This document shows, in pieces, positions 3,679 through 38,218 of a stretch of DNA of 56,012 nucleotides; the stretch's first letter is position 1, and every line of letters begins with the position of its first letter. The DNA comes from Clostridia bacterium. Lineage in GTDB: Bacteria; Bacillota; Clostridia; Oscillospirales; Acutalibacteraceae. Both the position numbers and the translations under genes were made by a program. Under the pieces are notes generated by a model that worked only from the letters and a program-made list of their open reading frames with translations, made no database searches and was not told where the DNA came from. Location of the stretch: NCBI GenBank assembly GCA_017441385.1, contig JAFRXY010000091.1, positions 1-56,012 on the forward strand. Reading direction: 5' to 3'.

Positions 3679-4386
3679 ATGGAAAAGAAAGAACAGCTTT
3701 ACGAAGGCAAGGCAAAGAAGGTCTTTGCTACCGAAGATCCCGATTACTGCATCGTTTCCTACAAGGACGACGCCACCGCATTCAACGGCGAGAAGAAGGG
3801 TACCATTGCCGGCAAGGGCGTGGTGAACAACAGAATGTCCAACATGCTCTGCAAGCTGCTGGAGCAGAAGGGCGTCACAAACCATTATGTCGAGGAACTG
3901 AACGACCGAGAAACTCTCGTCAAGAAAGTGCAGATCGTACCGCTTGAAGTCATCATCAGGAACACCGCCGCAGGCAGTTTCTCCAAGCGCTTCGGCGTTG
4001 CGGAAGGTACAAAGCTCAACTGTCCCACACTGGAATACTGCCTGAAGGACGACGCGCTGGGCGATCCCATGATCAACGACAGCCAGATTCTCGCTATCGG
4101 CGCGGCCACGCAGGAAGAGCTTGACAAGATCGCGGCCATGGCTTACAAAGTGAATGAAGTTCTCATTGAATTCTTCAAGACCATCGGCATCGAGCTGATC
4201 GACTTCAAGATCGAGTTCGGCAGATTCCACGGCGACATCATTCTCGCCGACGAGATTTCACCCGACACCTGCCGCCTCTGGGACGTCGAAACCCACCAGA
4301 AACTCGACAAGGACAGATTCAGACGCGATATGGGCGGCGTGGAAGAAGCCTATGCGGAGGTTTTCAAAAGACTGAATCTCAACTGA
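3679..4386 (+). CDS. purC: Phosphoribosylaminoimidazole-succinocarboxamide synthase (SAICAR synthetase)
   Basis: Joins CAIR and aspartate with ATP in de novo purine synthesis. The 235-residue length is typical of the bacterial enzyme. Recognisable segments are [10 protein letters not shown] at the N-terminus, the nucleotide-site stretch [29 protein letters not shown], the aspartate/CAIR region [11 protein letters not shown], and [14 protein letters not shown] near the end. AAAGGAGAG precedes the ATG. It follows glnA closely with no terminator between them, so it may be co-transcribed with glnA, linking purine and glutamine supply. A strong terminator follows. Confidence 0.96.
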
Positions 4387-4421
4387 ATGCTGTCATTCAG
4401 CGGCATTATCCTGAAATCAGC

Positions 4422-4463
4422 AAAAAGTGTACGGCGGCCTTTTTCGGACGCGGTACACTTTTT
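4422..4463 (+). terminator. Terminator of glnA-purC
   Basis: AAAAAGTGTAC (4422-4432) and GTACACTTTTT (4453-4463) form a perfect 11-base stem ending in a T-run, 36 bases after the purC stop. Confidence 0.85.
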
Positions 4464-4482
4464 CTTTATCAATTATTTGCAC

Positions 4483-4518
4483 AAAAAAATGTGAGCGCCA
4501 GTCCCGAAGAACTGACGC
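4483..4518 (-). terminator. Terminator of the HD-GYP gene
   Basis: On the minus strand GCGTCAGTTC (4509-4518) pairs with GGACTGGCGC (4495-4504) across a TTCG tetraloop, and seven Ts follow (4483-4489). It lies about 30 bases past the stop of the HD-GYP gene. Confidence 0.85.
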
Positions 4519-4550
4519 CCAGCTTTAAAGAAAGGAATCGATGGAAAAGT

Positions 4551-6425
4551 CTAGATGGAAATAGGTGTGACAATGGCGGGATCGACATTGATCTTGGGCA
4601 GCGCCTTACGTCTCTGCGCTTCCTGATCATTGATCTTGTCATTTTCCGCAGTCGCTATCTGTGAATCGGCGGACAGGAGATTTTCTTCGTCGCTGTCGTC
4701 ATCCGGGAACTGATCCCTGATCTTGAGCATCTCGACGTAGCACTTCTTGAATGCCTCAACCGCCGAAGGATCGAACTGCCTGCCGCTCTGGGAGGTAATT
4801 TCCTCATACACCTTCTGTGCCGGCCATGGCGCCTTATAGCTTCTGCGGCTGAGCAGAGCGTCAAAAACGTCGCAAACCGAAACATATCTCGCGAATTTGT
4901 CTATATCTTCGCCCGAAACACCGAGGTATCCTGTGCCGTCCCAGCGCTCGTGATGGTGAAGGATAATATGCCGCGCCATCTCCATAACCTCGCCGGGTGC
5001 GTTGCCTATGATATCTCTGCCGTAGATGACGTGCTTCTTCATCACGCCGAATTCCTCGGCTGTCAGTCTGCCGGGCTTTTCTATGATTTCCTTGGGAATC
5101 ATCAGCTTGCCAATGTCATGAAGCATGGCGGCAATGCGGAATGTTTCAAGCTGCTCCGCGGTATCGCAGACATATTTGCCCATCACTCTGGCATATTCTG
5201 AAACGCGGCGGATATGCTGACCCGTTTCCTGAGAAGAATTTTCCGAAACGACAGCGAGCGAATAGGCCAGCTGCTCCTGTGTGCGGAACATGTCGAATGT
5301 CAGCATGGTGTTGTTGATGATACTGGTAGTGCTGTAGGTGTAGATATTCAGCACTTCCTTCATGCTGTAGTCGTCGGATTCTACATCCTGCCTGAACGAG
5401 GCAAAGCCCATCAGCTTTCCCTTGTCGTAAAAACGGATATTGACAAATCCTTCTCTCTCCTCGGAATAGCTGGTAGCGCCTTCAATATACTTACTGAGTC
5501 TGAATCGGGCATTATTGAATTCAAAACCGATATCATCGCCGAGGTCACGGCAGATATTGTTGGGATTGCCGTCGCTGTCAACGGTGTAGAAATGATCTCC
5601 GTCAAGCACCCCGACTGTACCGACCGGTTTCTTTTCGGGGGAAAGCATAAGGGTAAGCAGTTCTCCGAGGTTTAGCACCATACGTTCCGCCAGCACACTC
5701 ATGTCGCGTGTTCCCATCAATCCCTGTGTTTGACTCATGACCATCTGAATGCCGTTTGTCATTCTTCCGATTTCGTTGGAATTGTCAATGACGTTGGTCA
5801 GCATCTTGGACGCCTTTCTGGCAACCTGACGGGCAATGAAGGCAATGGGAAGAAAAACAATAATCCTCGGAAGCGCACCGTACAGCATGGCGGCCTTGAC
5901 GGTTCTGAGCGGGTCATCGCCCAGAAGCAGTAACGTCGCCGCAAGATAATGACCCAGCACGATCGCCGGAACGGTGGTGAAAATCGCGAAATGAACCAGC
6001 TTTTTATCAAAATAGATGATACTTGACACAAGAGGGAACAGCCAGAGCATCATTACATGGTATGACAATACCGAATAGAGCATGACCACGACAATAAGAA
6101 TATCCGTGATCATAAAGTATTTGACCCATTCGCCCTTGCATTTTAGCAAATAAGAGATGACAAACGGAATAAAGAAAAGGATGGTCGAAGCGATACAGAC
6201 GATCCTCATGATCACAGGCGCGATACGGAACACGCCCGATTCGTTAAGAATCAGACAGAACATAACAAGGAATCCGGCAAAAAGACATATCTTGCCGTAC
6301 AGTTTGTTTGCCCTTTCTTCGTTGTTATTCAGAAAATCAGCCTGCGACAGATTGATATTGAGCGTCCCGTGAACTTTTTTCTTTTTGTTTTTCTTTTTCA
6401 GGGTATCTTTATTATCATTTTTCAT
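4551..6425 (-). CDS. Membrane-bound HD-GYP domain protein, likely cyclic-di-GMP phosphodiesterase
   Basis: 624 residues from ATG 6425, which has GGGAGG 12 bases upstream. An in-frame ATG at 6482 exists, but the promoter at 6491-6518 would start transcription at about that codon, so it is unlikely. A Lys-rich head (~KKKNKKKK) is followed by about six membrane segments (residues 45-200), a sensor-like middle region, and an HD-GYP domain from ~390. The metal motif LHDIGK is at ~435, and HHHERWDGTGY at ~490. HD-GYP proteins hydrolyse c-di-GMP or related dinucleotides. The signature reads GTGYLGVSG where GYP.GL is usual, so the Pro is Leu and one residue is missing. Substrate specificity is therefore uncertain. 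Confidence 0.85.
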   Translation of the reverse strand: MKNDNKDTLKKKNKKKKVHGTLNINLSQADFLNNNEERANKLYGKICLFAGFLVMFCLILNESGVFRIAPVIMRIVCIASTILFFIPFVISYLLKCKGEWVKYFMITDILIVVVMLYSVLSYHVMMLWLFPLVSSIIYFDKKLVHFAIFTTVPAIVLGHYLAATLLLLGDDPLRTVKAAMLYGALPRIIVFLPIAFIARQVARKASKMLTNVIDNSNEIGRMTNGIQMVMSQTQGLMGTRDMSVLAERMVLNLGELLTLMLSPEKKPVGTVGVLDGDHFYTVDSDGNPNNICRDLGDDIGFEFNNARFRLSKYIEGATSYSEEREGFVNIRFYDKGKLMGFASFRQDVESDDYSMKEVLNIYTYSTTSIINNTMLTFDMFRTQEQLAYSLAVVSENSSQETGQHIRRVSEYARVMGKYVCDTAEQLETFRIAAMLHDIGKLMIPKEIIEKPGRLTAEEFGVMKKHVIYGRDIIGNAPGEVMEMARHIILHHHERWDGTGYLGVSGEDIDKFARYVSVCDVFDALLSRRSYKAPWPAQKVYEEITSQSGRQFDPSAVEAFKKCYVEMLKIRDQFPDDDSDEENLLSADSQIATAENDKINDQEAQRRKALPKINVDPAIVTPISI

Positions 6426-6490
6426 TGCCGGATAAAGCCTCCCGTTAAAAAAATCGTTGACTATCGGTTCTGATTCAACCATTTAAATAA

Positions 6491-6518
6491 ATTATATCAT
6501 ATATTCATTAAATTGCAA
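6491..6518 (-). promoter_or_regulatory. Promoter of the HD-GYP gene
   Basis: On the minus strand TTGCAA (6513-6518), a 16-base spacer and TATAAT (6491-6496). The expected start near 6484 supports translation from ATG 6425, not 6482. Confidence 0.65.
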
Positions 6519-6659
6519 CCTGTTTTTAATTTTTTTGAAAAAAAAATTTGAATTTAACTATTATTTTAGTGTAAAACGCAATAATTTTTTTATTGAATAT
6601 TGACAATGTCAGAAAATAGCTATATTATATCTTCCATCAATAGTCAGGAGTGTTTGAAG

Positions 6660-7238
6660 ATGAAGAAGCTGGCAACCGTGTTTTTTTCACTTGCAATCGT
6701 TTTAACGTCAGTCGTAACCGGCTGCAAGGCCGATAACAGTTCGTCCGTTTCTCCCGGCGACGCCCTCCCCTCTTCGGTCGTTGAAGTCAGCCGCATTGAC
6801 GTGACCGACGAGATCGGCATCTGTTTTGATCACGAGAAAAACGACGAGATTTTTATTCTGGAATATAAGTGGTACGGTGAGGAATTCGTTTCCGACGACA
6901 GTCTCAACAAGACCATGCTCGACCACTACGCGCCGAGACTGCACCACGCTCCCCGGGTTGATCAGGATACCGTCATCTCCGTGGTGTTTGAACCGTCCGA
7001 AAAGCTGCCGTCGGCCATAAACCTGACACAGTACGGCAACACGGTACGATCCGATTCCGGTCTTCCCTATGACACCATCGCCATCGAACTGGTAAATGAA
7101 GATGAAGATCCTTTTGCCTATTCTTTTCATCTTGATTACAGAAATCTCAAAATGTACTATTATCTGCTGGAATGTCAGTGGGAAAACGGTAACATGATCA
7201 AGATAGCGTTCGCGGTGGAAAAGCCCAAAAACCAATAG
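6660..7238 (+). CDS. Lipoprotein of unknown function
   Basis: 192 residues from ATG 6660, with AGGAG ten bases before. The N-terminus is a type II signal peptide: MKKLATVFFSLAIVLTSVV followed by TGC, with lipidation expected on Cys22. A Ser-rich tether leads to a ~160-residue globular part with acidic and aromatic residues (EKNDEIFILEYKWYGEEF, FHLDYRNLKMYYYLLECQW). I do not recognise the family. The surrounding 6483-6659 and 7239-7450 are AT-rich and hold only promoters and short poly-A/T tracts. Confidence 0.75.
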   Translation: MKKLATVFFSLAIVLTSVVTGCKADNSSSVSPGDALPSSVVEVSRIDVTDEIGICFDHEKNDEIFILEYKWYGEEFVSDDSLNKTMLDHYAPRLHHAPRVDQDTVISVVFEPSEKLPSAINLTQYGNTVRSDSGLPYDTIAIELVNEDEDPFAYSFHLDYRNLKMYYYLLECQWENGNMIKIAFAVEKPKNQ

Positions 7239-7333
7239 CCGGAGTGCCGCAGCGGATATCATTCATCAGATATATTTTTAAATTTTTAAAGTTTTTAACA
7301 TTTTAAAAAAAAACATATTTTTAAAAATTATAC

Positions 7334-7362
7334 TTGACTGATTCATGCGGAAATGATAACAT
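7334..7362 (+). promoter_or_regulatory. Promoter ahead of the 7451 gene cluster
   Basis: TTGACT (7334-7339), a 17-base spacer and TAACAT (7357-7362), about 90 bases before the gene at 7451. A short GGGCTTTTTTAAGCC palindrome follows at 7374-7388. Confidence 0.5.
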
Positions 7363-7450
7363 TTATTTATCGGGCTTTTTTAAGCCGACAATACAGGGGC
7401 GTCTGTAACCAGCCCGCTCTGTCTTTACATTCAGATGAAGGAGATTGTTT

Positions 7451-8164
7451 ATGGAAAATCAAAACATTTCGGGTAAGAAAAAGGCCGGAGGAATTATACT
7501 TGATATTCTCACCATCGGCTTGCTTTTCGCCTCATTTGCGGCTCTGTTCTATTCAGGTTTTATCATTCAGAGCGATTCGTTTCCGCTCGGCGCGCTTTGT
7601 GCCATTACAGCCGTCGGACTTCTGCTGCTTTTCCTGATCGGAGCCGTATCGTGTCTGTCTTCGAAAGTGAAAAACGACTCTCTGACTGCCGGCTTTCTCG
7701 CATTCTCGGCGGTTCAGCTCGTTGCGCTCATCGTAAACCTCGCGCTGCTGCTTGGCATTATGGTCAAGCTTTTCAGCGTTTCCGGGCTTCCGGCCAGAAT
7801 TACATATATAGTCACAACCGCAGTCGTTCTGATCGGATACGTTGCAAGCATCTTCTATTTCTCCGACGGCACAGTCGGTGAAATTTCCGAGGAAGACAAG
7901 GAAGACGACCAAGACGACGAAAACGAAGAAGCTGACGATGAAGACGATGAAGCCGATGAGGCCGCCGACGAAACCGATGAAACTGCCGATGAAGCCGATA
8001 AAGCTGACGATGAAGCAGAAGAAGTCGAGGAAATCGGGGAAGTCGGGGAAGTCGAGGAAATCGGGGAAGTCGGGGAAGTCGGGGAAGCAGAAGAAACCGG
8101 TGAGGCGGAAGAAATTGAAGAACCCGACGAGGCAGAAAGCACAGAAAAAACCGAAAGCATGTAA
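7451..8164 (+). CDS. Four-helix membrane protein with a long acidic low-complexity tail
   Basis: 237 residues from ATG 7451, with GAAGGAG eight bases upstream. Residues ~13-135 form four hydrophobic segments. From ~140 to the end the protein is almost only Glu, Asp, Ala, Val, Gly and Ile, in short runs such as EVGEVEEIGEVGEVGEAEE, and the DNA is correspondingly repetitive. A negatively charged cytoplasmic tail could bind cations or basic partners, but nothing identifies a function. It is followed after 41 bases by the lipoprotein at 8206 and then by the DUF1015 gene, so the three are likely co-transcribed. Confidence 0.75.
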   Translation: MENQNISGKKKAGGIILDILTIGLLFASFAALFYSGFIIQSDSFPLGALCAITAVGLLLLFLIGAVSCLSSKVKNDSLTAGFLAFSAVQLVALIVNLALLLGIMVKLFSVSGLPARITYIVTTAVVLIGYVASIFYFSDGTVGEISEEDKEDDQDDENEEADDEDDEADEAADETDETADEADKADDEAEEVEEIGEVGEVEEIGEVGEVGEAEETGEAEEIEEPDEAESTEKTESM

Positions 8165-33882: not shown

Positions 33883-36800
33883 TTACTCCACAACCGCTCC
33901 GTACTGCCGAAGCGCTTCTCTGTCAACGGTGCTTTCCTCATGCAGATCGCGCATATCGCAGCCGGTTATATGCAGTCCCGGATAATTGCGGATCACACGG
34001 AGACATTCGCCGGTTTCGGTTGACCATAAGCACAGGGTGCCGTCTTCTGCTCCCGAGAGAATTGTCCTGCCGTCGGGCGCGTAGACTACCGTGTTGACGC
34101 TTCCTTTATGTCCCTCATAGGTATGCAGGCACTCCCCCGTGATCCTGTCCCATTCCCTGACCGTCTTATCGGCAGAGACGGAAAGGAATGTCTTTCCGTC
34201 CGGCGAACAGGCTACGCTCAATACCGCTCCGTTATGGCCTTGGAATACTCTGATACACTGCCCTGAAGCTATGTCCCATTCCCTGACCGATTTATCGGAA
34301 GAGCCGGAAAGCACGCTTTTCCCGTCTGTAAAGCAGTCGGCGCAATTGACTTCACCGCTGTGTCCCTGGCAGACACAGATGCATCGTCCTGTGAATCTAT
34401 TCCACAGTTTGACGCTGTTTCTGTCCGCCGAAAGCACAATCCTTCCGTCCGGCGAATAGGCGGCTTCTCTGACTTCTCCGCCGCGTTCCCTCATTCTATG
34501 CGGCGGCTGTTCCGCCGCCCGGTTTGCTTCACGGTTTCTCGTAAACCTTGATTTTGAAAAGGATCTCCTTCCGGCGGGGGAAAAGGCCGCCGGACAGATG
34601 TCATTTCCAAAGGAATCATAGGTGCATACGCACTGTCCGGCAGCCCGATCCCATTCCATCACGGCGTTATCCCCGCCCGCCGAAAGAATCGTATTCCCTT
34701 CCGGAGAGAAGGCAACGGATTTCACCTCGCCGCCGCAGCCTTCGTATGTGCGGATACAGCGGCATGTGGCAACATCCCATTCCCTGACGGTATTGTCAGC
34801 GGATCCCGAAATGACGGTGCATCCGTCGGGCGCATAGGCGACGGAATTCACCTGTCCGCCGTGTCCTTCATATGTACGGACGCACCGGCCGGTTGCCGTG
34901 TCCCATTCTCTTACCGTATGCTCAACCGTGCCGGTGAGGAATGTGGCGCCGTCCGGAGAAAACGCCGCGGAACAGACCGCGCCATTATACCTATCAAATT
35001 TTCTGATACACCGTCCTGAGAATCTGTCCCATTCCATGACGGTACCATCCATGCCGCCCGAAAGCAATGTCCTTCCGTCGGGCGCATACGCCACGGAATT
35101 GACAAAATGACTGTGTCCGTTATATCTTCTTATGCACTGTCCGGCAGCGATATCCCATTCCAGAACGGATTTATAGGACTCCGAAACGAAGCTCCTGCCG
35201 TTCGGCGAATAAGCGACTGAATTCACAAAACTGCCGTGTCCGTTATATACGCAAATGCACTGTCCGGTCGATCTGTCCCATTCCCGGACGGTGTTATCAT
35301 TGGAGCCGGAAAGGAATGTCCTGCCGTCGGGAGAACAGGCGACGGTATTGACCCAATCGGTATGTCCTGAATAGGTGCGGATACACTCGCCGGACAACAA
35401 ATCCCATTCCATGACCGTTCCGTCAACCGCTCCCGAAAGGAATGTCATACCGTCGGGGGAATAGGCCACGGAATACACCGAGCCGGTATGTCCCGCGAAC
35501 GTAAACACACACTGTCCGGTTTGGGTGTCCCATTGCCTGACGGTTTTATCGACAGAGGCCGAAAGGAATGTCCTGCCGTCAGGCGAACAGGCGACGGCCG
35601 TGACCGCTCTGCTGTGTCCCGTATAGGTGCGTATACGCCTCCCCGTCACTCTGTCCCACTCTCTGACGGTATTATCTCTTGAGCCTGAAAGGAATGTCCG
35701 GCCGTCAGGGAAAAAGGCAACGGAATTCACCCAATCGCTGTGCCCTGCATAGGTGCGCACACACTGTCCCGTCAGCCTGTCCCATTCCTTTACGGTGCCG
35801 TCATGCGACCCCGAAATGATTCTCCTGCCGTCAGGGGAACAGGCTACGGATTCCACCGTATCGCTGTGTCCCTGACAAACAAGATTATCCATACTGATCT
35901 TCGCCCCCTGCAAACAAGCCCCCTCCGCCCCGGCACGTCCGAGACGGAGACCGTTGAAGGAAACAAGAGAAAGGTCAAGATAGGAAAGGTCAACCTCCGA
36001 CAATTCCTTCCCCGTCAGTTTTATCATTTCTATCAGGTTGTATACCCCGTATCCGACTTCATCATCAAATCTTCCCCGAAAAACAGTAAGTGCATGCTCC
36101 ATCTGTATGGGAGCTTTTTCCGGGTCGGGGGCGTTTTTTTTCCGTTTTTTGCCAAGGAAGTTTCCGGCTTTGTCATTGACGCCGAACTGCTCAACCATCC
36201 ATTCCGTTTTTTCCCGATCATTCACACGTCCCGTAAATGAAGCAAGGCTGGTCAGGGCGAGGTCATAATTGCATTTGGAGGCCGCCTGTATGGCAATACG
36301 CAATCGATTCACATCATAAACCGACGCAAAATAATCACGAAAGCAGCAATGGATAAATCCGAACGCATTCCCGGCGTCGCGGTACAGGAGTCCCAGCACA
36401 TCGGTTGACGCCTTCAGCACAAATTCAGCTACTTCCGCCATCTCCCCGTTCACTTCAAGAATGGAACGGGCGATAGCCGGAAGGCCTTCGCTGCCCTTGT
36501 AGTCCGGAAAGCATTTCCGGCCGTATTCACCCAGAACCGAACACTGGCAGACCGAATTGTCCGGCCCATTGCCCTGTTCCTCCCGGCCGGACAGAATCGG
36601 CTCGATGACGCCTGCCGCTTCATCAGGAGAAATCTTTACACTCCCTGTGCGTTCCATATGGGAACCTATCGCGGGCAGCAGAAAATCAAGCATGAACCAC
36701 AGCTGCCATTTCGTTACCCATTCTTTTGTACCGCTGTCCATGGGGCTTTCACGTATGTATTCCGTCTGCAATTTTTCTCTGCGTTCGTTCAAAAAGCGGC

Positions 36801-38163
36801 TGATGATTTCACTGCGGTTGGACACGCCTTCCGTATTTTTTAACGAACCGAACAGGGAGAGAAACAGCGGCTTTGCAATGCAGTCCGCCAGACCGCTTCT
36901 CGACATGACATCATTGATTTCGCGGGATGAGTATTTCTTCCCTCCCAGATATCCGGCCGCCGATTCGGGTTTCAGACCGGTAAAACAGAGTTTTTTAACC
37001 CCGTATTCGCTCCAGTTGATGTCGGTTTTTTCGGCATTGCCTGTGAACATGACACGCACATTCGGGCATCGGGTGAGAAGATAGATGATTTCATCGGTGA
37101 GCAGAGAGCGGATGGAGCGGGAATTGCCATTGTCATTGTCATTGTCATCGCTCACTGATTCCGTGGAAGTTTCGTCCAGACCGTCCAAAAGAAGCAGGTA
37201 TTCCGGAAAACGGTTCCTCCTGCCGAACAATGCGTTTATGTTGCTGACATAATCCTTCGGAACTTTCGCGGCGCTGTCCAGTCCCAGAAACAATCTGGCG
37301 ATTTCGCACAGGATAAATCCGGATGGCAGACCCTCCTCGCCGGAATAACAGCCGCCGCGCCGGGGGGCGCCGGTCAGATCGACAAATATGGGCAGTTCGG
37401 TGTGTTCGCTGTAGTAATTGCCTTTGTAGGTGCTTTCCATGATCCCGAGCAGAGCGGTTGTTTTTCCTGTTCCCTTCCCGCCGATAAGACAGAAACTGTA
37501 ATTCCGCGCCTGCACAGCATCGTTAATAGAGATTTCCTCTCTGTGCGGGCCGAATGTCACGCAGACGGGAAGAAGGCTTCCGCTTGCTTTGGGCTTTTTT
37601 TCATTCCTGTTCAGCGGCATGATGCGTTCGTCCGCACAGGGCGGGAAGAATCTGCTGCCTTCCACCGAACACTCTTTCAGAAAACGGTGCCCCGCTCTCT
37701 CCATTCTGCGGCGGTTCACCCGGCAGACAGCCCTTGCAAGACAGTGAAGTTCGGCTTCTGACGGCGCCACGCTCTTCAGATTGATTCTGCTGAAGCGCGG
37801 CAGATCTTCGAGCCCTTTCGGCAGTCCGTATCCCGGAAACGCCGTTATTGCCGGCACCAACGGAATGACGGAACGGTCGCGGGGATTTTTTTTGAATTCA
37901 TTGACCGCTATAGTCATTTCATAACGAACCCAGTCATCTTCTCTGCGGAAGCGGAAAACGTCGGGAGTGGCAATCAGCACAAAATGGGGTGTTGTGAGCA
38001 GTGTCCTCCGTATCTGCGTATAAAAGATTTTGCCGTCGGTCAGATCATTGGTATTGAGAAATACGCGCAGCCCGCGCGACGTCAGATAATCACAAACAAC
38101 CTTTGCCAATTCCGTTCCGTCGCTGGGGCGGTAGGAAATAAATACGTCAAATATCTGATTCAT
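33883..38163 (-). CDS. TIR-NACHT-WD40 protein, candidate NLR-like (STAND) immune receptor
   Basis: 1426 residues from ATG 38163, with AAGGAGC upstream. Order of parts: a TIR domain (~4-140; FDVFISYRPSDG, DLTDGK, EDDWVRYEM); a NACHT-type STAND NTPase with Walker A GGKGTGKTT (~228) and Walker B LLLLDGLDE (~323), and the FIHCCFRDYFAS helix (~603) typical of these ATPases; a short pentapeptide-like stretch (~720-760; VDLSYLDLSLVSFNGLRLG); and ~15 WD40 repeats (~764-1392). This resembles bacterial antiphage NLRs: the repeats sense a ligand, the NTPase oligomerises, and the TIR may consume NAD+ and kill the infected cell. The catalytic Glu of the TIR cannot be assigned with certainty by eye. No partner gene is adjacent. 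Signalling in development instead of defence is possible. Confidence 0.88.
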   Translation of the reverse strand: MNQIFDVFISYRPSDGTELAKVVCDYLTSRGLRVFLNTNDLTDGKIFYTQIRRTLLTTPHFVLIATPDVFRFRREDDWVRYEMTIAVNEFKKNPRDRSVIPLVPAITAFPGYGLPKGLEDLPRFSRINLKSVAPSEAELHCLARAVCRVNRRRMERAGHRFLKECSVEGSRFFPPCADERIMPLNRNEKKPKASGSLLPVCVTFGPHREEISINDAVQARNYSFCLIGGKGTGKTTALLGIMESTYKGNYYSEHTELPIFVDLTGAPRRGGCYSGEEGLPSGFILCEIARLFLGLDSAAKVPKDYVSNINALFGRRNRFPEYLLLLDGLDETSTESVSDDNDNDNGNSRSIRSLLTDEIIYLLTRCPNVRVMFTGNAEKTDINWSEYGVKKLCFTGLKPESAAGYLGGKKYSSREINDVMSRSGLADCIAKPLFLSLFGSLKNTEGVSNRSEIISRFLNERREKLQTEYIRESPMDSGTKEWVTKWQLWFMLDFLLPAIGSHMERTGSVKISPDEAAGVIEPILSGREEQGNGPDNSVCQCSVLGEYGRKCFPDYKGSEGLPAIARSILEVNGEMAEVAEFVLKASTDVLGLLYRDAGNAFGFIHCCFRDYFASVYDVNRLRIAIQAASKCNYDLALTSLASFTGRVNDREKTEWMVEQFGVNDKAGNFLGKKRKKNAPDPEKAPIQMEHALTVFRGRFDDEVGYGVYNLIEMIKLTGKELSEVDLSYLDLSLVSFNGLRLGRAGAEGACLQGAKISMDNLVCQGHSDTVESVACSPDGRRIISGSHDGTVKEWDRLTGQCVRTYAGHSDWVNSVAFFPDGRTFLSGSRDNTVREWDRVTGRRIRTYTGHSRAVTAVACSPDGRTFLSASVDKTVRQWDTQTGQCVFTFAGHTGSVYSVAYSPDGMTFLSGAVDGTVMEWDLLSGECIRTYSGHTDWVNTVACSPDGRTFLSGSNDNTVREWDRSTGQCICVYNGHGSFVNSVAYSPNGRSFVSESYKSVLEWDIAAGQCIRRYNGHSHFVNSVAYAPDGRTLLSGGMDGTVMEWDRFSGRCIRKFDRYNGAVCSAAFSPDGATFLTGTVEHTVREWDTATGRCVRTYEGHGGQVNSVAYAPDGCTVISGSADNTVREWDVATCRCIRTYEGCGGEVKSVAFSPEGNTILSAGGDNAVMEWDRAAGQCVCTYDSFGNDICPAAFSPAGRRSFSKSRFTRNREANRAAEQPPHRMRERGGEVREAAYSPDGRIVLSADRNSVKLWNRFTGRCICVCQGHSGEVNCADCFTDGKSVLSGSSDKSVREWDIASGQCIRVFQGHNGAVLSVACSPDGKTFLSVSADKTVREWDRITGECLHTYEGHKGSVNTVVYAPDGRTILSGAEDGTLCLWSTETGECLRVIRNYPGLHITGCDMRDLHEESTVDREALRQYGAVVE
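33988..35874 (-). repeat. 126-bp WD40 repeat array
   Basis: About fifteen coding repeats of ~126 bases, each giving the pattern GHS..VNSVA.SPDGRTFLSGS.DNTVREWD..TGQCIRTY. One (about the eleventh) has lost the pattern, reading FTRNREANRAAEQPPHRMR. Several neighbouring copies are very similar, which suggests internal duplication or recombination. Confidence 0.9.
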
Positions 38164-38218
38164 ATGCAAAAAAGCTCCTTGGGTCTTTGTGTTTGACTTC
38201 CTGTTTGGCAGATAAATT

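Follow-up and report, generated by a model that had tools for sequence, protein, structure and literature searches.

We find that a gene in the window (the whole 56,012-nucleotide stretch of clostridial DNA analyzed here) joins TIR, NACHT and WD40 domains in a single protein, and that it probably encodes a cytoplasmic STAND/NACHT receptor of the NLR type that would activate an NADase; this copy of it is diverging fast. The gene lies on the minus strand at positions 33883-38163, from an ATG at 38163 to a stop codon at 33883-33885. The open reading frame, Pfam and the structure models bear out the 1426-residue TIR, NACHT and WD40 protein given in the preliminary description; an alternative TTG start 87 bases upstream of the ATG would yield 1455 residues. 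An AAGGAG ribosome-binding-like site, read from the sequence, stands 11 bases before the ATG (38175-38180, minus strand), and the consensus promoter attributed to the gene is indeed its own: a sigma-70-type TTGACA-17-TATAAT at 38247-38219 (minus strand), matching at 12 of 12 positions.

The effector is a TIR_2 domain at residues 7-105 (37849-38145, minus strand), matched by PF13676 with an E value of 1.4e-12 and a score of 48.6 bits (cut-off 28). The nearest PDB sequences are those of the tir-1/SARM1 NAD hydrolases, and in the structure model the domain matches the SARM1 TIR fold with a TM score of 0.78-0.87 by target. Glu82 aligns with the Glu of the SARM1 motif DWVHKE, the catalytic residue of SARM1. 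The window protein thus shares with SARM1 and tir-1 the TIR fold and the Glu column; SARM1 carries ARM-SAM where the window protein has NACHT-WD40.

The NACHT module, including its helical part, extends over residues 189-661 (36181-37599, minus strand; borders approximate, from the model), and its Pfam match lies at 37096-37491 (minus strand). Cut out alone, the domain scores 24.5 bits against PF05729, under the 26.7 cut-off; scored with its neighboring domains in frame it reaches 28 bits, and the sister copy scores 34.8 bits. Both nucleotide-binding motifs named beforehand are present in the sequence, Walker A (GGKGTGKTT) at residue 228 and Walker B (LLLLDGLDE) at residue 323, and residues K234, T235, T236, D327 and E331 are invariant across 18 aligned rows. 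The best five Foldseek matches to the TIR-NACHT structure model (pLDDT 79.8, pTM 0.78) are NLRP3, NLRC4 and NOD2, with E values of 2.3e-9 to 7.2e-9 and a probability of 1.00 over about 600 columns, at a large rmsd (10-14 for the best five). This model and that of the WD40 array were based on 18 and 9 sequences. Arg376, the sensor-1 arginine, is nearly invariant over the 18 aligned rows; in the alignment with 8 other rows, all of which keep it, the window gene has Asn. Three P-loop neighbor residues are altered as well, and with these changes in its NACHT core the gene may have a switch set otherwise than in its kin.

A bridge resembling pentapeptide repeats, at about residues 721-754 (35902-36003, minus strand), leads from the NACHT module to the sensor; it can be seen by eye (ELSEVDLSYLDLSLVSFNG), as had been described, but it has no Pfam pentapeptide match. 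The WD40 array occupies residues 755-1390 (33994-35901, minus strand). Pfam finds 13 separate WD40 stretches, a 42-column matrix finds 13 blades and misses two more, and the structure model (pTM 0.60) has 60 strands, that is, 15 blades, so the earlier estimate of about 15 repeats is correct. A compensated frameshift within the odd blade at residues 1176-1265 was considered and is unsupported, since the other two frames contain stops and, by eye, no WD40 motif. The array is followed by a C-terminal cap (PGLHITGCDMRDLH...LRQYGAVVE; 33886-33993, minus strand) that is similar in the complete kin inspected. In the fold comparison 2ymu ranks first and full-length Apaf-1 fifth, the latter over 630 columns with a TM score of 0.52 by query, and the modeled array resembles the Apaf-1 double propeller. 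Both proteins place a STAND NTPase before a WD40 array, which forms two propellers in Apaf-1 and may do so in the window protein; Apaf-1 has CARD and NB-ARC where the window protein has TIR and NACHT.

The Pfam domains and the folds (NLRP3, NLRC4 and NOD2, SARM1 TIR, Apaf-1) support the sensor-switch-effector plan proposed for this protein, and several known systems share it. As described in the sections of PMC12169576 drawn on here, bNACHT antiphage proteins likewise have an N-terminal effector, a central NACHT and a C-terminal sensor, an order found in the window protein by Pfam and in the model; their effectors are DNases or of unknown type and their further domains SNaCT or NCH1, whereas the window protein carries TIR and a probable double WD40 propeller. 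Compared by domain plan, human TEP1, NWD1 and NWD2 (DUF4062-NACHT-WD40) also combine an NADase-type domain with NACHT and WD40, with DUF4062 in place of TIR_2 in the portion of PMC13174449 used. The fungal HNWD proteins HET-E, HET-D and HET-R show the same effector-NACHT-WD40 order, and their HET effector domain has been proposed to be TIR-related. In contrast to HNWD, the window gene has a bacterial TIR, its array is old and not homogenized, and there is no fusion biology.

In a working sequence of events, the two predicted WD40 propellers would keep the NACHT NTPase closed in the resting state. A ligand, either a foreign protein (from a phage or elsewhere) or a host protein in a disturbed state, would bind the propellers at their variable top faces; nucleotide exchange and oligomerization of the NACHT module would follow, and the gathered TIR domains would consume NAD+ and halt the cell, presumably as antiphage defense.

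The gene is solitary locally, as first described, but not at the level of the genome, which holds a TIR-NACHT-WD40 paralogue 55% identical to it on another contig (C1) and 11 TIR_2 places. The family is present in 12 of 18 genomes of the genus, its own included, and the N-terminal effectors are exchanged among kin; the kin in genome G009 lie near a phage-type integrase, and a PriCT-2 primase/helicase pair is found close to those in G006. Carriage by phages or plasmids was considered and rejected: there was one weak record among 50,697 phage records, none among 72,556 plasmid records, and one weak viral contig. Nor could the gene be assigned to a named defense system: no NCBIfam model scores above its cut-off (the Thoeris model ThcB4 gives 34.1 bits where 220 are required, and Retron_TIR 19.1 where 600 are), and PADLOC matches TIR or WD40 segments only. 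To this extent the combination is little described, as had been suggested, but its kind is already known from bacterial NACHT proteins and highly repetitive bacterial WD40 proteins.

Pfam verified the reported position between leuCD and a sucrose regulon, with leuC and leuD (aconitase families), GH32, PTS enzyme I, PTS EII, HAD, LacI, alpha-amylase and PfkB genes as neighbors. The comparison with a cargo gene was not borne out, and mobile cargo at this site was set aside: 16 distinct neighboring ORFs (10 with a Pfam match and 6 without) include no integrase or transposase, and the only tRNAs in the whole window are at 644-801, not nearby. No other defense gene was recognized by Pfam among the scanned neighbors, and no Rfam element reached its gathering score between 30000 and 40000. 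The leuC/GH32 site is common to no congener examined, although in one a WD40 fragment adjoins GH32; since leuC and GH32 are apart in every congener examined, insertion at a conserved empty site is unsupported. The patchy distribution and unshared site support the conclusion that this is an accessory gene.

We calculated blade identity and variability, treating tandem repeats as independent in arrays of few blades. According to the main text of PMC5587647 (Hu 2017), in which NACHT and TIR were not found, the arrays of highly repetitive bacterial WD40 proteins are young, reach 0.7 or more in internal identity and have diverse hotspot sites. With a mean of 0.80, the G017 array fits this class; that of the window, at 0.49, is below the 0.7 mark and only moderately repetitive by comparison. 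The C1 paralogue stands at 0.75 (3 blades) and G013 at 0.69 (4 blades). In the young kin arrays, variability is concentrated at blade positions 6, 7, 8, 10, 26 and 28. Columns 6 and 7 were included post hoc; 8, 10, 26 and 28, from the Paoletti paper, are the positively selected positions of fungal HET-E/HET-D (HNWD codons 7, 9, 25 and 27, with an offset of one), and each variable pair flanks a conserved site, V9 and D27 in the young arrays, as in HNWD. In the window array, too, all four belong to the 7 columns of 42 that vary most; the other three are columns 3, 6 and 36. At these four positions pN/pS is 1.35 in three young arrays picked by us (bootstrap 0.92-2.18, which spans 1) and 0.99 in the window array (0.71-1.41, not above 1); it is 0.80 in G013 and 0.62-0.97 in the other old arrays. 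Adding G013, a broken copy excluded from the pools, keeps the same six top columns and lowers 1.35 to 1.28. Contigs C1 and C98 both end inside an array, and we pooled these two arrays on the inference that they belong to one gene; kept separate, they give 1.29. The out-of-register window blade at residue 972, one G006 blade and both G001 blades were excluded from the variability and pN/pS counts; one separate pool of 16 blades retained the out-of-register G006 and G001 blades.

Judged by sequence comparison, the window gene is a fast-diverging outlier of its family. Its end branch measures 0.86, whereas those of the C1 paralogue and the G006 copy are 0.025 and 0.024 long. Slow, uniform divergence at one site in all relatives, the pattern set against an immune role in the preliminary description, is absent. 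The window gene also breaks 45 of 165 columns kept by the other rows, 36 radically, including Arg376, His606 and His607. Such changes, together with a GC3 of 0.58-0.60 against 0.69-0.75 in the neighbors and a badly degraded blade around residues 1190-1230, could mark a copy that lost selection on its switch after duplication and is heading for a pseudogene while the C1 paralogue does the work. We consider this unlikely, because the 4281-base frame is free of stops (none in 754 TIR-NACHT codons, where a null of random substitutions, set at an assumed 0.40 changes per site, gives a mean of 25.4), the Walker A Lys and Thr, Walker B and Glu82 are retained, pN/pS is 0.37 at blade codons outside the variable columns, and the consensus promoter is intact. 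A dN/dS test of the window branch was set aside since synonymous sites are near saturation (dS 1.5 or more). Paired NLRs operate in plants, and the genome likewise holds two family members, both with TIR and WD40, one canonical and one with an altered NACHT core. That the latter is a specialized sensor or helper working with the C1 paralogue is nevertheless distinctly unlikely: the copies lie on separate contigs and nothing marks them as a gene pair, and the search of G006 found the canonical copy only.

Could the receptor instead recognize self and kin, so that a non-self variant of some conserved host protein, rather than a phage, prompts it to stop or kill cells? In favor, it shares the architecture class of HET-NACHT-WD40, and young kin arrays vary at the same four positions, but two old kin arrays, G010 and G015, lack the pattern: the four are not their variable positions (columns 8, 10, 26 and 28 rank 22, 13, 2 and 36 of 42 in G010, and 25, 13, 2 and 35 in G015). 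In addition, no candidate partner gene was recognized among the scanned neighbors, and we know of no fungal-style cell fusion in bacteria, which makes this explanation very improbable. Regulation of the adjoining sucrose or leucine genes, between which the gene lies in the same orientation, can be almost dismissed: the gene has its own promoter, an 11/12 promoter-like site precedes leuC at 33819-33791, and in no congener examined does the gene adjoin leuC (present in 17 of 18 genus genomes) or GH32 (in 10 of 18).

The reading of the window gene as a diverging NLR-type receptor also bears on its family. It has been proposed that eukaryotic NACHT proteins derive from bacterial ones (in the part of PMC12169576 consulted). 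The host clostridium probably comes from ruminant guts, and we suggest, tentatively and with more doubt than conviction, that its genus may run a bacterial counterpart of the HNWD repertoire. In this repertoire TIR-NACHT-WD40 receptors would arise, lose or swap effectors and rebuild the sensor by duplicating and exchanging its repeats, while diversifying selection acts on blade positions 8, 10, 26 and 28 as in HET-E/HET-D; the window gene would be an aged, rewired member with an altered NTPase switch. Within this one genus the same receptor occurs in old and young versions, with effectors swapped, and the sensors of the young versions vary at four positions familiar from fungal non-self recognition, so that the diversification of a bacterial NLR sensor through its repeats becomes directly testable.

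The gene at 33883–38163 on the minus strand encodes a protein of 1426 residues (start ATG at 38163), which the preliminary description proposed as a candidate NLR-like immune receptor. This plan is borne out by Pfam matches to TIR_2, NACHT and WD40, by the Walker A and B motifs and by the predicted folds: what the gene encodes is indeed an NLR-like receptor. TIR_2 matches within the N-terminal 188 residues (E 1.4e-12), the closest solved sequences are those of the NAD(+) hydrolase tir-1 and SARM1, and Glu82 in the motif DWVRYE shares an alignment column with the Glu of DWVHKE in SARM1, which we take to be the catalytic Glu642. The Walker motifs lie mid-protein; the NACHT score is 24.5 bits alone and 28 bits with neighbours in frame (cut-off 26.7), and WD40 makes up the C-terminal half (13 Pfam stretches). 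The receptor is most likely an NAD+-consuming immune switch, and an antiphage role would fit what is known of the family.

The model of residues 1–754, built from 18 aligned sequences (pLDDT 79.8, pTM 0.78), has chains of NLRP3, NLRC4 and NOD2 as its best five Foldseek matches (E 2.3e-9 to 7.2e-9, probability 1.00), with rmsd values of 10–14 indicating that the domain placement differs from that in these chains. SARM1 TIR domains match the same model with TM 0.78–0.87, normalised by target. The model of residues 745–1426, built from 9 sequences (pLDDT 81.6, pTM 0.60), contains 60 strands, forming 15 four-stranded blades; its top structural match is the highly repetitive propeller 2ymu, and full-length murine Apaf-1 ranks fifth, over 630 columns. 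The fold matches and blade count therefore point to a predicted TIR–NACHT–propeller architecture in which the propeller is a probable double one.

The consensus promoter attributed to this gene was also found, as a sigma-70-type site with 12/12 matches 5′ of the gene, and AAGGAG lies 11 bases 5′ of the ATG. On one side the gene is flanked by leuC, which has its own promoter-like site (11/12, 33819–33791), and leuD; on the other lie genes for GH32, PTS enzyme I, PTS EII, HAD, LacI, alpha-amylase and PfkB. Pfam matched 10 of the 16 distinct neighbouring ORFs scanned, and none of the 16 looked mobile or defensive. Among the 18 genomes of the genus, leuC is present at ≥94% identity in 17 (the exception, G005, has only paralogues at 38–40%) and GH32 was found in 10. 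Neither GH32 nor the receptor gene occurs on the leuC 5′ side in the 14 congeners from which it was taken, 12 of them with at least 1.7 kb. The GH32 3′ side, taken from six of nine congeners (at least ~4 kb in five and 0.9 kb in G010), holds in G001 alone a WD40 frame of 137 residues and three blades immediately 3′ of GH32 (locus L100, 3505–3918), which is probably a remnant. In G006 a family member shares a contig with GH32, ~15 kb away and beyond the opposite, 5′ side.

Queried with this G006 copy, 12 of the 18 genus genomes, the source genome included, match at E ≤ 0.001, G004 and G011 partially or weakly; queried with the window copy, 13 of 60 genomes match, 12 within the genus and one, very weakly, outside it. 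When the species-genome collection was scanned by pattern, 25 loci matched, 10 of them genus genomes again; the titles name Clostridia groups (22), Sporofaciens musculi (one), Bacillota only (one) and Anaerolineaceae (one), and in four a ruminant gut site. A cap following the WD40 array and ending near LRQYGAIVD is common to the complete genus copies read, with a looser version in several distant copies among the matches listed. In these assemblies the copies of G009, G013, G016 and G017 are broken or truncated, whether for biological reasons or through faulty assembly. One phage record (MT836118.1, bases 1342–2406), obtained from human faecal samples, encodes a match with 26% identity to the NACHT region. 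In G009 (contig C29, 11662–13068) a phage-type integrase follows the family member at ~1 kb, and a DnaB/Toprim-type helicase gene lies beyond it; in G006 (contig C10, 11028–14933) ResIII/DEAD helicase and PriCT-2 primase-ATPase genes precede the member, which suggests a mobile element.

The N-termini are exchanged among family members. In G010 and G015, ~150 other residues replace TIR on a NACHT that shares 53–55% identity with the G006 one. In two congeners (loci L061 and L070) the module that stands in for TIR, in the first 140 codons of the gene, gave no Pfam or PADLOC match and is possibly an unrecognised effector. Two weakly related proteins begin with a protein kinase (L081) and a trypsin-like peptidase (L082). 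The latter, at 4272–8156 of a contig classed as viral, has ATPase motifs resembling those of NACHT and a C-terminus that, by eye, looks like a propeller and ends in the manner of the family cap. By eye, L076 (from a record titled plasmid), L079 and L080 have a mutually similar N-terminus of ~200 residues instead of TIR, with no Pfam match in the two scanned (L076 and L079). The source genome (2.66 Mb) has eleven TIR_2 places (loci L032 and L046–L050), with partners that resemble, by eye, leucine-rich repeats, an extracellular-binding domain, Sel1 repeats and long PE repeats. A STAND-rich cluster in G013 (contig C22, 1976–16542) comprises large adjoining genes on one strand, encoding a TPR-array protein (1461 residues, weak NACHT match), a kinase–pentapeptide protein (1483 residues, weak NPHP3_N match) and a TPR–NPHP3_N protein (1274 residues).

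The window gene is an outlier of its family. A paralogue in the same genome (contig C1, 6100–8343) shares 55% identity with it and 95% with the G006 copy; its array reaches the contig end and probably continues on contig C98, where similar blades stand at the contig end and the cap is present. A tree of 16 TIR-NACHT rows groups the window copy with these two canonical copies (support 100/98) and gives it an end branch of 0.86, versus 0.025 and 0.024 for theirs. Nine rows were also compared by leaving out one at a time, using columns filled in at least six of the others. Of the 165 columns kept by all other rows, the window copy breaks 45, of which 36 radically, followed by G005 (32 of 152) and the remaining rows (0 to 16). 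The changes include R376N, at what we take to be the sensor-1 arginine, the P-loop neighbours E229G, G230K and I232T, and H606C with H607C. GC3 is 0.58–0.60, versus 0.69–0.75 in neighbours and 0.68 in the paralogue. The main rival reading of such changes is a decaying copy. The 754 codons of the window copy that were examined contain no stop, versus a mean of 25.4 (minimum 14 in 200 trials) under random substitution at an assumed 0.40 changes per site. Compared with the paralogue, the window copy has a pN/pS of 0.43, at nearly saturated synonymous sites; the value between the canonical copies is 0.11. On our reading the window copy is functional and diverging fast.

Blades of the window array have a mean identity of 0.49, compared with 0.75 over 3 blades of the C1 paralogue and 0.80 over 8 blades of G017. 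We pooled 17 blades from three young arrays (C1 plus C98 of the source genome, G017 and G006). Of the 42 blade columns, the six most variable are 8, 7, 26, 28, 10 and 6, with a gap beneath (0.58 to 0.38). The pN/pS is 1.35 (bootstrap 0.92–2.18) at columns 8, 10, 26 and 28 and 1.47 (1.13–2.27) at all six, a value reached by 13 of 1000 random six-column sets, versus 0.22 (0.14–0.29) outside the variable columns. Adding G013 (identity 0.69; 0.80 at the four columns by itself) leaves the six columns unchanged, with pN/pS of 1.28 (four), 1.37 (six) and 0.25 (elsewhere). The four-residue combinations differ in all 17 young blades and in all 12 window blades in register. In the window array the four columns fall within the seven most variable, alongside 3, 6 and 36 (chance 3e-4, not corrected for the choice of seven), with pN/pS of 0.99 (0.71–1.41) versus 0.37 elsewhere. 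In the older arrays, columns 8, 10, 26 and 28 rank 2, 1, 9 and 5 in G009, and 8, 10 and 28 rank 13 to 36 in G010 and G015, where the four columns give pN/pS values of 0.71 and 0.62. The pattern therefore belongs to the young arrays, and partly to the window and G009 arrays.

The principle is already known, since Hu 2017 (PMC5587647) notes variation at interaction hotspots in highly repetitive WD40s. In the open-access literature searched, no bacterial TIR-NACHT family was found described as having such blade variability. For the fungal NACHT-WD repeat family, Paoletti 2007 (PMC1805685) reports strong positive selection at codons 7, 9, 25 and 27, in pairs flanking conserved codons 8 and 26, in the d-a loop and b-c turn of the top face. 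These codons correspond to our columns 8, 10, 26 and 28, around V9 and D27. The sensor of the young kin appears to diversify as in fungi, and these kin are more remarkable than the window gene itself.
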